Position numbers and translations under genes: made by a program. From NCBI RefSeq assembly GCF_000687995.1, contig NZ_JIAC01000001.1, positions 992,001 to 1,056,000 of the forward strand: a DNA stretch of 64,000 nucleotides, given 5' to 3'. The notes below the pieces were generated by a model. The model ran no database searches and had not been told where the DNA came from. It saw only the letters and a list, made by a program, of their open reading frames with translations. Every line of letters begins with the position of its first letter. Within the stretch, counting starts at the first letter, position 1. The DNA is from Selenomonas ruminantium AC2024. Its GTDB lineage: Bacteria > Bacillota > Negativicutes > Selenomonadales > Selenomonadaceae. Shown one piece after another: positions 6,371-55,576 of the stretch.

Positions 6371-7321
6371 TTGGATAGCTTTATATTGGCGGCCGTCATC
6401 GCCGCAGGTTTCGTTTTGCTGACCGGGCCGTTTTTCATCCCGGAACTGCATAAGTTGAAGTTTGGCCAGAGCATTCGCGAGGAAGGGCCGGCAAGTCATC
6501 AGGCTAAGAGCGGTACCCCCACCATGGGCGGCATTATGATTATCCTCGGGATTACCATTGCCACGCTCGTTGCGGCACCGTTTTCCACGGAAATTCTGTT
6601 GGCACTCTTTATCATGCTGGGGCATTTTGTGCTGGGCTTCCTCGATGACTATATCAAGGTGGTCAAGAAACGGAACCTGGGTCTTAAAGCGAAGCAGAAG
6701 ATGCTTGGGCAGATTATCATTGCGGTGGTTACCATGGTTATCGGCACGCGGATGCTGGGCATTGACACGACCATCTGGCTTCCGGTGCTCGACAGCCACA
6801 TCAATATCGGCGTTGGCTATTATGCTCTGGTGCTGTTCGTGATGGTGGGCACCAGCAATGCGGTAAATCTCACGGACGGTCTGGACGGTTTGGCCTCCGG
6901 TACGGTAGCCATTGCCGCCAGCTCCTATGCTGTGGTCTGCACGCTGCTCGGGCACAGCGATTTGGCTATTTTTGCTACGGCTATGGCTGCTGCCTGCGTG
7001 GGCTTCCTGCGCTTCAATGCACATCCGGCCAAGGTGTTTATGGGCGATACAGGTTCTTTGGCGTTGGGCGGTGCCATGGCGGCGTTGGGCATCCTCACCC
7101 ATACGGAAGTGCTGCTGGCGCTTATCGGCCTCGTGTTTGTCTGTGAGGCGCTGTCGGTCATCATTCAGGTGGCTTCCTTCAAGTCTACGGGCAAGCGGGT
7201 GTTCCGCATGAGCCCCATTCATCATCATTTTGAACTGGGCGGCTGGTCGGAATGGAAAGTGGTCTTCGTCTTCTGGACGGTGGGCCTGCTGGCAAGTATT
7301 ACGGCACTGAAACTGTTATAA
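6371..7321 (+). CDS. mraY: Phospho-MurNAc-pentapeptide transferase MraY
   Basis: 316-residue polytopic membrane enzyme that transfers phospho-MurNAc-pentapeptide to undecaprenyl phosphate, giving lipid I. Diagnostic motifs are GTPTMGG near residue 42, the catalytic Asp pair in LDDYIK near residue 93, NAVNLTDGLDGLA near 162, FMGDTGSLALGG near 222, and the histidine cluster PIHHHFELGGWSE near 284. The start is TTG at 6371 behind GTGAGG; no closer ATG preserves the N-terminal helix. Confidence 0.95.
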   Translation: MDSFILAAVIAAGFVLLTGPFFIPELHKLKFGQSIREEGPASHQAKSGTPTMGGIMIILGITIATLVAAPFSTEILLALFIMLGHFVLGFLDDYIKVVKKRNLGLKAKQKMLGQIIIAVVTMVIGTRMLGIDTTIWLPVLDSHINIGVGYYALVLFVMVGTSNAVNLTDGLDGLASGTVAIAASSYAVVCTLLGHSDLAIFATAMAAACVGFLRFNAHPAKVFMGDTGSLALGGAMAALGILTHTEVLLALIGLVFVCEALSVIIQVASFKSTGKRVFRMSPIHHHFELGGWSEWKVVFVFWTVGLLASITALKLL

Positions 7322-51272: not shown

Positions 51273-51471
51273 GGCGCAACAGGCGGGGATTGGCTGGCAT
51301 GCGCTGAGGCGCGGAACTAAAAATATTTTTTATCTTCAATAAAGGGGCTGGAAAAGTCAAAACTCGCTGTCGCTCAGACAGTTGACTTTTCCAGCCCCTT
51401 TTTGATAAAAAATATTTTCTTAACGTTCCGCGCCAAACGCTCCTGTCAGCCAGCCCCCGCCTGTCGCTTGC
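51273..51471. repeat. Large imperfect inverted repeat after jetC
   Basis: 51273-51361 resembles the reverse complement of 51380-51471 over about 90 bases, with small mismatches and indels. The innermost 20 bp (51341-51360 with 51382-51401) are perfect, and the right side runs into T, so it also works as a terminator for jetC. A loop with CTGTC/GACAG lies at the centre. The size and the near-symmetry suggest a MITE-like or REP-like insertion. The rest of 51247-51832 is AT-rich with no gene. Confidence 0.6.
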
Positions 51472-51707
51472 TTTGTACTGCTGGTTGATTCATTCGGATT
51501 GACATGTCAATTTAGGGGAGGGGCCATCTTTATCTATAAACTCATATGATGAATACAAAAAATATACATGAGTATATTAGCGTGAGTTATACGATATGTA
51601 TCACAAATAAAGTATAATAATGAAAAAACACCTATATAAACTAGAATGATATGGTTATATATCTTAATTAGTGTGAAAATAATCATCAATTTACCGATTA
51701 TGAATAA

Positions 51708-51832
51708 ACTTTTCTAGTGCAAAAGTCCCAAATTCATGTTATGATTCTAAAGTGATTTTCACAGAATCATAAAGATGTAAACAGAACCGAGCGGCCGAGG
51801 GATACGGCCAACGTAGAAAGGCGTGTGAGGAA
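51708..51832 (+). ncRNA. Structured leader RNA of the first MCP gene (copy 1)
   Basis: 125 bases ending at the start codon. Hairpin 1: ACTTTT/AAAAGT (51708-51713 with 51721-51726), loop CTAGTGC. A TCCC follows at once (51726-51729). Hairpin 2: 10 bp, 51739-51748 with 51763-51772. Hairpin 3: GGCCG/CGGCC (51793-51797 with 51805-51809), loop AGGGATA, whose GGGA can pair with the TCCC as a pseudoknot. A conserved ACGTAGAAAGGC block then reaches the ribosome site. The same layout recurs at 53730-53869. Confidence 0.55.
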
Positions 51833-53539
51833 ATGAGATTAAAAGACATTCGTATTGGAGTTAAAATCTTGGTGTTGGTGGTAATAGGTATTATCGGCAT
51901 GGCGATTCTGAGTTTTTCAGGCTATAGTGCCATGAGCAAGGCCGGGGATGACCTGGATAATATGTACCACCGCAAATTAAAGGCAACCCGCCTGCTGGGA
52001 AATGAAATCAACTATACCCGCAAAGTTCAGCTGGGGGTTACCAAGCATATCATTGATCCTAAGGATGAGCAGATTGTTACCTATGTGAAAGAATCTTTGG
52101 AAAGCTATGAAAAGACCTGGCCACAGTACCGGGAACTGGCTATGCGGGCTGATAATGTTGCCCCGCATATTCCTGAAGTGGAGAAACAATGGGTTGAATA
52201 TCGTCAAGGAATTATGGAAGTAAAGCGGCTTACGGATGCAGGTAAAAAACAGGAAGCTTGGGAACATTACAAAAAGATGGAAAATGGCATTACCAAGGAT
52301 TTGGTGGCCAGTCTGCATAATCTGGAGAAACTGGCCAATGACAATGCGGATGCGATGAATGAGGAAGTCACAGCGACCAATGCACATGAGATGTTCATGA
52401 TGATTGTGACGACGGTATTGTGTTTCCTGGCTTTGATGGCGGTGGCCTTCTTCATCATCCGCGACATTATGACCACTTTGGACAAGATGGTGGCAGAGTG
52501 TAATGAGATGAAGACAGGGGACTTCCGTCTTAATGATCATTACGAACCGCGTGGAGACGAGTTGGGACAGATGGAAGCTGCTATGCAGGAAATGCGCAAG
52601 GAACTCAACGATTTGATGCGCAAGGTCAGCGAATCTGCCGAACAGATGGCGGCTTCGTCTGAAGAACTTTCTGCCAGTGCCGGGCAGGCTGCTCAGGCTG
52701 CAACACAGGTGGCGCAGTCGTCTACGGATGTGGTGGAGTCGGTGGAACACCAGCAGAAAGCTGTTATGGAAAGCAATGTGTCCGTACAAAATGCGGAAAG
52801 CTCCGTGGAGGAAATTCGTCAGCAATCCGCCAAGGTGGAGGAAAATTCCGCAGCTGTTGCTCAGCGGGCAGATGAAGGCAATCAATCCATTGATGTGTCT
52901 GTGCGTCAGATCAAGGATGTAGAGGTAACAGTAACTTCCTCTGCCATGATGGTAGAACGTTTGGGTGAACGCTCCAAGGAAATTGGGGAAATCGTGGACA
53001 CCATGACAGGAATTGCCGAACAGACCAATCTGTTGGCGTTGAATGCTTCTATCGAAGCGGCCCGCGCCGGTGATCATGGTCGTGGCTTCAAAGTGGTGGC
53101 AGAAGAAGTGGGCAAGCTGGCGCATGAATCCAAAGAATCTGCAGAAAAGATTGCGAGCCTTATCAAGGAAATTCAGAGTGATACAGAAGATGCGGTTATC
53201 GCCATGCGTTCTGGCAAGGCTGCTGTTATTGAAGGCGCACAAAGTGTTGGGGGACTGCGCACCATGTTTGAGGAAATCAATCAGTTGGTAGTGGGAGTGT
53301 CCGAGGAAATCAGCCAAGTTACGGAAGCTATTCATTCGGTTGCTGATGCCACCAACGAAATAGTTGGTGAGATGAATGATATCAACACCTACAGCGGCAA
53401 AGTGGCCAGTGAAATGCAGTCGGTATCTGCCGCCACGGAAGAACAGTCTGCTTCGGCAGAGGAAATCGCTGCAGCCAGTGAAGCACTGGCAACGTTGGCG
53501 CAGAGTCAGCAGGAAGCGTTGTCTCACTTCCGTTTTTAG
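51833..53539 (+). CDS. Methyl-accepting chemotaxis protein (copy 1)
   Basis: 568 residues. Membrane span 1 (about 10-30), a periplasmic four-helix-bundle sensor (4HB_MCP, about 35-190), span 2 (about 192-213), a HAMP domain (about 214-268), and the MCP signalling domain whose hairpin tip is [25 protein letters not shown] near residue 395. It controls CheA at the pole in response to a ligand that cannot be inferred. It ends without a CheR-binding pentapeptide. It is paralogous to the next gene over its full length. Confidence 0.95.
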
Positions 53540-53645
53540 GAAATATGCTGATAATGATTTTAGTTTCAACCATAAGAAAAAAATATAGATGGTATTTATT
53601 AAAGGAAAATGTCGCTTATAGGTAACTAAAATATAAATATATCCT

Positions 53646-53690
53646 AAGAATGACCGCTAATCACAAATAGATTAGCGGTCATTCTTTAAT
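53646..53690 (+). terminator. Terminator of MCP copy 1
   Basis: 16-bp perfect stem (53646-53661 with 53671-53686), 9-base loop; the following T tract is short (TTAATTT). Confidence 0.75.
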
Positions 53691-53729
53691 TTGTATAAAA
53701 ATAATAATCAATTCGTTAATTATGAATAA

Positions 53730-53869
53730 ACTTTCCTAGTGCGAAAGTCCTAAACATGTGATAAAGTTAGCACATATTTTTGGCAAAAATATAGCGAGAA
53801 TGGAAAAAAGACGTAAGTAAAATCGAGAGGCCGCAGGGATACGGCCGACGTAGAAAGGCATGTGTGGAA
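53730..53869 (+). ncRNA. Structured leader RNA of the second MCP gene (copy 2)
   Basis: Same plan as copy 1. Hairpin 1 is ACTTTC/GAAAGT (53730-53735 with 53743-53748), a compensatory change (U-A to C-G) with the loop CTAGTGC unchanged. TCCT follows (53748-53751). Hairpin 2 (about 53774-53780 with 53786-53792) has an unrelated sequence but the same position. Hairpin 3 GGCCG/CGGCC (53829-53833 with 53842-53846) has loop CAGGGATA. The ACGTAGAAAGGC block is again next to the start codon. Confidence 0.55.
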
Positions 53870-55576
53870 ATGAGACTAAAGGACGTTCGTATTGGAGCCA
53901 AGATATTGGTGCTGGTTGTTATCGGCATCATGGGCATGGCAATTTTGAGTTTTTCTGGTTATCGGGCTATGAGTCAGGCAAGTGACGATATTGACAACAT
54001 GTATTCCCGTAAACTGAAAGCAACCCGTATGTTGGGCGATGAAATCAATTACATGCGTATGATTCAGGTGCGCATTGTAAAGCATATTCTCGACCCGAAG
54101 GATGCACAGATTAATGCTTCTATCGACGAAGCGATGAAAAGCTATGAAACGAAATGGCCGGAATATAAGGCTTTGGGCATGAGAGCAGATAAAGCAGCTG
54201 CCGAAATTCCCAATACGGAAAAGAAGTGGGCGGAATATAAAAATGGGATTCAGGAAGCCCGCAAGCTGGCAGATGCCGGCAAAACCCAGGAAGCTTGGGT
54301 GTATTACAAAGGCGTGGAAGCCGGTGTAACACAGGAACTCTTAAAGAGTCTTGTAGCTTTGCAGAAGGTAGCAGATGACAATGCGGATGCACTCAATGAG
54401 GAAATCGTTGAACGCAATGCCAGCACCATGACTGCGATGATTGTTACGACTCTGTTGTGCTTTGCGGTGCTGATGGGCATTGCCTTCTTCATCGTTCGCG
54501 ATATTATGACCAATCTGGACAGAATGGTTATGGAATGCAACCGCATGAAGGATGGGGACTTCCGTCTCAATAGCAATTATGAACCCCGTGGGGACGAACT
54601 GGGTCAGATGGATGCCGCTATGCAGGATATGCGTAAGACCCTGAACAAGCTGATGCGTCATGTCAGCGAATCTGCTGAACAGCTGGCAGCTTCCTCCGAG
54701 GAACTCACGGCCAGCGCTGGTCAGGCTGCTCAGGCTGCTACGCAGGTAGCGCAGTCTGCCACGGAGGTTGTGGAATCTGTTGAGCATCAGCAGAAATCTG
54801 TCATGGACAGCAATGAAGCCGTTCAGAGCGCCGAGGCTTCTGTAGAAGAAATCCGTCAGAAGTCCGACCAGGTAGAGGCAAATTCCAACGCCGCTGCTAC
54901 GCGCGCTGAAAAGGGCAATCAGGCCATTGATGATTCCGTCCGTCAGATTAAGGATGTTGAGGAAACCGTTACGGCTTCTGCCAAGATGGTTGACCGTCTG
55001 GGTGAACGCTCCAAGGAAATCGGTGAAATCGTAGATACCATGACGGGCATCGCCGAACAGACCAATCTGCTGGCCCTTAACGCTTCTATCGAAGCGGCCC
55101 GCGCTGGTGAACATGGCCGTGGCTTTACGGTGGTAGCCGGTGAAGTCGGCAAGCTCGCGCAGGAATCCAAGGAATCTGCTGAAAAAATTGCCAAAATCAT
55201 CAAGGAGATTCAGGGCGATACGGAAGAAGCTGTGCTTTCTATGCGTACCGGCCGTGAAGCAGTGGTGGAAGGCGCACAGAGCGTGGAATCCCTGCGTACC
55301 ATGTTTGAGGAAATCAATCAGCTGGTAGTCGGTGTATCCGGCGAAATCAGCCATGTGACGGAGTCTATCAACGCCATGGCAGATGCCACCAATGACATCG
55401 CCAGCGAGATGAACGATATCAACAGCTACAGCGGCAAGGTGGCCAGCGAAATGCAGGCTGTATCCGCTGCCACGGAAGAACAGTCCGCCTCTGCTGAGGA
55501 AATTGCCGCAGCCAGTGAAGCACTGGCCAAACTGGCACAGGACCAGCAGGCTGCTCTGTCCAGCTTCCGCTTCTAA
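53870..55576 (+). CDS. Methyl-accepting chemotaxis protein (copy 2)
   Basis: 568 residues from the ATG at 53870; a GTG at 53864 is possible, but the ATG matches copy 1 (MRLKD(I/V)RIG). The architecture is the same as copy 1: two membrane spans, a 4HB_MCP sensor, HAMP and signalling domain ([25 protein letters not shown]). The signalling half is almost identical to copy 1, while the sensor half has more changes (for example [19 protein letters not shown] against [19 protein letters not shown]), so the ligand range may differ. Confidence 0.95.

Follow-up and report, generated by a model that had tools for sequence, protein, structure and literature searches.

The closest described systems are mRNA leaders controlled by CsrA. 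Known CsrA sites combine an ANGGAN hexaloop with a GGA at the Shine-Dalgarno sequence, the two being bridged by a CsrA dimer (PMC7652899; PMC4894983), and the stems of hairpins obtained by SELEX mostly have four pairs or fewer (PMC7652899). The Escherichia coli glgC leader has a hairpin just upstream of the Shine-Dalgarno sequence with a CsrA site in the loop, from which a tethered dimer bridges to the ribosome site (PMC7652899). The Bacillus subtilis hag leader has two CsrA sites, one overlapping the Shine-Dalgarno sequence, and FliW as the antagonist (PMC7652899). In the Campylobacter jejuni flaA leader, 5'UTR hairpins with ANGGA loops and compensatory changes in relatives are accompanied by a GGA at the ribosome binding site and by FliW-CsrA in the genome (PMC4894983).

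Comparable features are predicted upstream of two chemoreceptor (MCP) genes of Selenomonas ruminantium AC2024. The differences are as follows. The flaA target is a flagellin, with 21 nt between the GGAs and measured binding, whereas here the gene encodes a chemoreceptor, the GGAs are 29 nt apart and the site is predicted (PMC4894983). The glgC target is a metabolic gene with four CsrA sites (PMC7652899). Compared with hag, the candidate target is again a chemoreceptor gene, and its second GGA follows the Shine-Dalgarno sequence, ahead of the start codon, whereas that of hag falls within the Shine-Dalgarno sequence (PMC7652899).

The chemoreceptor locus and its orthologues

The window analyzed in this study is a stretch of 64,000 nucleotides, positions 992001-1056000 of the 2.83 Mb single-contig AC2024 genome. 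The MCP gene pair is preceded by an SbcC-like gene and has the following layout (window positions).

51833..53539, plus strand: MCP gene 1, with domains 4HB_MCP_1, HAMP and MCPsignal
53646..53686, plus strand: terminator-like hairpin between MCP 1 and MCP 2
53870..55576, plus strand: MCP gene 2, with domains 4HB_MCP_1, HAMP and MCPsignal; the open reading frame list starts it at an upstream GTG, 53864

Since the terminator-like hairpin separates the two genes, MCP 2 is probably a transcription unit of its own with its own promoter. The gap between the SbcC-like gene and MCP 1 also holds a very long inverted repeat (51320-51420; GGGGCTGGAAAAGTCAA...TTGACTTTTCCAGCCCC with flanks), probably a terminator or a small repeat element.

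The initial annotation described two similar leaders with common blocks ahead of the two MCP genes. Both the stretches (51708-51835 and 53730-53872, each upstream of one gene) and the strings (CTAGTGCNAAAGTCCY, GGGATACGGCC and ACGTAGAAAGGC) are real; with at most one mismatch, AGTGCNAAAGTCCYAA was found twice in the window versus 0.01 expected. The proposal that they form one structured leader did not hold in full, as it joins two different things, apparently promoter DNA and a 5'UTR hairpin. If this reading is right, the comparison with divergent orthologues shows how an apparent "structured leader" can separate into promoter DNA and a hairpin bound by a protein.

Clear MCP orthologues (at least 47% identity, with the MCP sensor region as the query) are present in 19 of the 22 same-genus genomes and are paired in nine of these 19. 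The exact string CTAGTGCNAAAGTCC occurs in ten of 189 family genomes; nine of them, AC2024 included, belong to the same genus and have it upstream of this MCP family, and in the tenth (G115) the surroundings are unlike the leader. A covariance model of the region from hairpin 3 to the ATG, built from eight leaders and applied to the 189 family genomes with E up to 0.1 and strict filters, gave 17 matches in 13 genomes. Sixteen of them map to this MCP locus, in 12 of the 22 same-genus genomes, one being a gene-less remnant (G155), and the seventeenth is a weak match in apparently coding sequence (G050, L087). In the AC2024 genome, the model scores just the two given leader copies. The outcome that the initial annotation had named as refuting its proposal, a lack of further copies outside recent MCP duplications, is therefore largely what was observed, G050 being the only exception to the confinement of the matches to the MCP locus. 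Most of the low-scoring BLAST matches of the leader looked coding by eye.

The G155 remnant is a leftover leader without an MCP gene (contig C62, approximately 6980-7047; L044/L058), about 330 bases upstream of an intact leader. It has a compensated hairpin 3, GGCUG-CAGGGAUA-CAGCC, and is apparently what remains of a lost tandem copy.

For the comparisons below, 28 leaders were collected by the AGAAAGG string, G151 (L026) being left out as it has no Shine-Dalgarno block. They were thinned to 20 non-redundant leaders (less than 85% identity). Promoter positions and folds were determined on 19 of these, the remnant in G155, which has no gene, being excluded.

Hairpin 3 and the start codon region

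The downstream part of each leader contains the following features.

51793..51809, plus strand: copy 1 hairpin 3, GGCCG-AGGGATA-CGGCC; loop AGGGAU (ANGGAN), stem changed but paired in relatives
53829..53846, plus strand: copy 2 hairpin 3, GGCCG-CAGGGATA-CGGCC
51815..51821, plus strand: copy 1 Shine-Dalgarno sequence AGAAAGG, its first base 18 nt from the start codon
53852..53858, plus strand: copy 2 Shine-Dalgarno sequence AGAAAGG
51829..51831, plus strand: copy 1 second GGA, adjoining the start codon; mostly paired in the predicted fold (probability of being unpaired 0.23)
53866..53868, plus strand: copy 2 second GGA, adjoining the start codon; kept though the GAGG of copy 1 is GTGG here

Hairpin 3 is present in both window copies as annotated (GGCCG-[C]AGGGATA-CGGCC), and on comparison of the leader sequences it is a real, conserved element of the predicted 5'UTR. 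Its loops, AGGGAUA and CAGGGAUA, place a GGA at the apex of a short hairpin. In relatives, the loop rather than the stem is conserved: ten different pairs of arms were observed among 12 hand-picked leaders (GGCCG/CGGCC, GGCUG/CAGCC, AGCCU/AGGCU, GGCUC/GAGCC, GCUCA/UGAGC and others), with the loop GGGA kept. The arms were picked for pairing, with near-duplicates, leaders lacking a clear stem and G162, whose stem is longer, excluded, so the 59 of 60 paired cells in this set are circular.

The hairpin with a GGGA loop is enriched relative to shuffled sequences. With a stem of at least 5 bp, it occurs in 16 of the 20 non-redundant leaders, against a mean of 2.0 and a maximum of 6 in 300 shuffles, and a GGA loop occurs in 18 (mean 6.7, maximum 13). 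Among loop tetranucleotides, GGGA ranks first (16 of 20) and GGAT second (10). Larger leader sets are inflated by relatedness and the thinned sets are fairer. Among leaders less than 70% alike, GGGA loops are found in 10 of 12 (mean 1.1, maximum 5 in 1000 shuffles), and among those less than 60% alike in five of seven (mean 0.9, reached by one of 1000 shuffles); for the GGA loop, also five of seven in the latter set, 75 of 1000 shuffles do as well. GGA occurs frequently in the vicinity of ribosome sites. As window background, GGGA-loop hairpins were found in three of 46 gene leaders, one of them that of MCP copy 1, and GGA-loop hairpins in ten; MCP copy 2 was missed here, probably because its open reading frame was called from the upstream GTG.

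The position of the loop motif is likewise conserved: 18 of the 19 leaders have a GGGA 32-44 nt ahead of the start codon, and in G150a it is at -56. The GGGA at the hairpin 3 position is inside a minimum-energy hairpin loop in 13 of the 19 predicted folds and outside in six; two folds (G160a and G150b) have no GGA in any hairpin loop. In G149a, G158a and G160a, the CUGGGGAYRAG string is kept with at best a 4-bp stem. The folding energy of the element is unexceptional (z of -1.8 and -0.9 for the two copies).

Shared ancestry alone might account for the similarity of the leaders, if orthologues and tandem duplicates simply kept them and hairpin 3 were a weak translational or stability element with no specific binder. 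The copies do belong to one MCP family, which is paired in nine of the 19 genomes with clear orthologues, but the stems of orthologues differ and yet pair around the retained GGGA, and the loop enrichment exceeds that of shuffles; we consider this explanation unlikely.

The ACGTAGAAAGGC block, annotated as fixed at the start codon of both leaders, is indeed present. We take its AGAAAGG to be complementary to the 3' end of 16S rRNA (CCUUUCU), and this fit identifies the fixed block as the Shine-Dalgarno sequence. The GGA that follows is at -4 in both window copies and at -3 to -7 in 16 of the 19 leaders; together with the loop GGA at -33, it gives the spacing of 29 nt in the window copies.

The remaining hairpin of the predicted 5'UTR is variable.

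53774..53792, plus strand: copy 2 hairpin 2 (ATATTTTT-GGC-AAAAATAT), at the predicted 5' end of the transcript; loop without GGA

As the initial annotation stated, hairpin 2 is unrelated between the window copies. Several relatives have a hairpin with GGGA or GGA in its loop at this position, and another GGGA is found at -73 to -80 in seven of the 19 leaders. The hairpin 2 loop lacks GGA in both window copies, which counts against control by CsrA.

Candidate control by CsrA and FliW

The hairpin of the MCP leaders is most plausibly a further target of an established regulator: the two leaders are probably 5'UTRs under translational control by CsrA, with FliW, as in hag, flaA and glgC. From the sequences we infer CsrA binding, repression as its direction, the coupling to FliW and the start of transcription. 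Two CsrA loci of the AC2024 genome score over the Pfam cut-off.

143498-144042 and 1611976-1612110 (genome positions): CsrA loci, one beside fliW, the other a divergent paralogue elsewhere

Further, the flagellin leader of AC2024 has a hairpin with the same loop, ACAGUC-AGGGAU-GGCUGU, and its layout is comparable to that of the B. subtilis hag leader (PMC7652899). Among the matches listed, 25 of 29 distinct flagellin leaders (30 loci) have a hairpin with a GGA loop and 12 of 29 with a GGGA loop, and by our own count 16 of 29 have the hexaloop A[GU]GGAU; these are raw counts without a shuffle control, over a stretch that extends into the Shine-Dalgarno sequence. The flagellin leader stems are compensated in relatives, for instance as ACGGGC/GUCCGU.

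Given the CsrA-site anatomy of the MCP leaders, the two CsrA loci with FliW, and the loop of the flagellin leader, CsrA probably represses receptor translation until FliW removes it. By the predicted starts, the MCP 5'UTRs would be 80 and 95 nt long. The GGGA in the loop of hairpin 3 would serve as a tethering site for one side of the CsrA dimer, and the other side would reach the start-codon GGA downstream of the Shine-Dalgarno sequence, blocking ribosome entry. Export of flagellin would free FliW, which would release CsrA, so that receptor synthesis would follow flagellar assembly. If this is true, the control by CsrA and FliW extends from flagellin to a Selenomonas chemoreceptor family, and a receptor would be made only while filaments are built.

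A further possibility, which we put forward as doubtful, is that the mRNA of a chemoreceptor takes part in the flagellin-FliW-CsrA assembly checkpoint, and that its leader, which has as many as three GGA sites, may titrate CsrA as well and so affect the translation of flagellin. Among the literature matches listed, no title or abstract dealt with CsrA control of a Selenomonas MCP leader or with a link between chemoreceptor mRNA and this checkpoint.

The GGGA loops might instead bind another partner, either a C-rich small RNA by kissing or a different RNA-binding protein. The GGGA varies less than ANGGA, the minimal CsrA motif, and the A of ANGGA is replaced by C or U in the hairpin 3 loops of G147a, G148, G144b, G143a, G162, G157 and G150b. 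However, AC2024 encodes csrA and fliW and carries the same loop in the leader of flagellin, the textbook target of CsrA, which makes a different partner improbable. These C or U loops count against a CsrA site as well, and so do the 5-6 pairs of the hairpin 3 stems, more than in most SELEX hairpins (PMC7652899), the three orthologues that keep GGGGAY with no good stem, and the largely paired GGA at -4 of copy 1.

Other MCP genes of AC2024 were also inspected. Several of their starts (L122, L123, L126, L127, L130, L131 and L133) are preceded by GCAGG[AG] and then a stretch rich in T; a search of the window with a loose pattern for the GCAGGA-type motif before other MCP genes showed nothing clear.

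The upstream block and the predicted promoters

Upstream of the predicted 5'UTRs, each copy has the following elements.

51708..51729, plus strand: copy 1 hairpin 1 with TCCC (ACTTTT-CTAGTGC-AAAAGT-CCC); conserved core at a fixed distance upstream of the -10 box, probable promoter or upstream DNA element
53730..53751, plus strand: copy 2 hairpin 1 with TCCT, probable promoter or upstream DNA element
51737..51745, plus strand: copy 1 predicted extended -10 box, TGTTATGAT
53759..53767, plus strand: copy 2 predicted extended -10 box, TGATAAAGT

The -10 box string TGNTANNNT is found at -85..-102 in all eight main-clade leaders (shuffles: mean 0.24, maximum 3), and all 11 divergent leaders have a TTGNNN-17-TANNNT promoter (mean 0.78, maximum 5), which is downstream of hairpin 1 where the latter is present. 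In the 19 intact leaders, the start codon follows the end of the -10 box by 85-115 nt (148 in G162). A point against the promoter reading is that a simple sigma-70 scan, which also requires a -35 box, did not call the -10 boxes of the window copies, neither of which has a good -35.

An AAAGTCC-like core lies upstream of the predicted -10 box in 15 of the 19 leaders, that is, in every leader having the core. The distance from the GT of the core to the end of the -10 box is 19 bases in the eight main-clade leaders and 52-53 in the seven divergent ones. The remaining four leaders showed no forward core within 220 nt, and G160b (L118), one of the four, has the AAAGTCCTA core inverted, as TAGGACTTT, 146 nt before the start codon and upstream of the promoter of the second MCP copy. 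The fixed distances and the inverted core suit a protein site on DNA, although shared ancestry alone could keep the core distances within a clade.

As an RNA helix, hairpin 1 gives a mixed picture. In the alignment 90.5% of its cells pair, above any slid version, and of its six pairs 4-6 form in each of the eight main-clade leaders tested and 2-6 in the seven divergent leaders (six in G143a, five in G162). An assumption that the divergent orthologues all lack the 5' arm and that G148 and G144b have lost it was rejected: in G148, G144b and G143a the pairs do form, and in G162 most of them. The covariation of the helix is no better than in shuffles (185 of 500 at least as high), and with the core upstream of the -10 box, conservation of hairpin 1 as an RNA structure was not seen across the relatives. 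The change from U-A to C-G, annotated as compensatory, does exist between the window copies, but eight of 14 aligned copies (two of seven distinct rows) have a C.A mismatch at this pair, which adjoins the loop. Part of the inverted repeat of hairpin 1 is retained, as would also be expected of a DNA operator.

The deciding argument for reading hairpin 1 as DNA is its position relative to the -10 box. The promoter positions suggest that the block of hairpin 1, CTAGTGC and TCCY is most likely promoter or regulator-site DNA, outside the RNA. The pairing of TCCY with the GGGATA of hairpin 3 is possible on paper, but in the same 15 leaders TCCY is upstream of the predicted -10 box.

The structured leader that was proposed initially is thus supported for hairpin 3, a conserved structured 5'UTR element whose loop fits a CsrA site, and not for a riboswitch-like leader of three hairpins with a pseudoknot. 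No Rfam family was accepted for the leaders: the whole window at the gathering score gave tRNAs only, and a permissive scan (E up to 10) of 51500-53900 gave four sub-threshold matches, none in the two leaders, with two further loci also scanned at E up to 10. The initial annotation had likewise matched the leaders to no known class. The c-di-GMP-I and c-di-GMP-II riboswitches are found before chemotaxis genes in some bacteria; neither matched in the window at the gathering score, nor in 51500-53900 at E up to 10. A new riboswitch, in which hairpins 1-3 and the TCCY-GGGATA pseudoknot bind a small ligand and control MCP translation, would agree with the conserved blocks, the changed but paired stems of hairpin 3, the lack of Rfam matches and the better pairing of hairpin 1 than of its slid versions, but is highly improbable given the shuffle-level covariation of hairpin 1, its place upstream of the -10 box, the core inverted in G160b, the restriction of the model matches to this MCP locus, and the single short hairpin and Shine-Dalgarno region shared by most leaders, which leave little for an aptamer.

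Finally, two genomes (L021, AC2024 near 824760; L037, G156) also have AGTGCNAAAGTCCYAA upstream of a gene with GGDEF in its translation; other matches with one mismatch look unrelated to the leader. On the reverse strand of L021 and L037, at about 1500, AGTGCTAAAGTCCCAA, with the core as upstream of the MCP genes, is just ahead of the TTGCAA-17-TATAAT promoter of the GGDEF gene. This may be a common regulator site for MCP and c-di-GMP genes.
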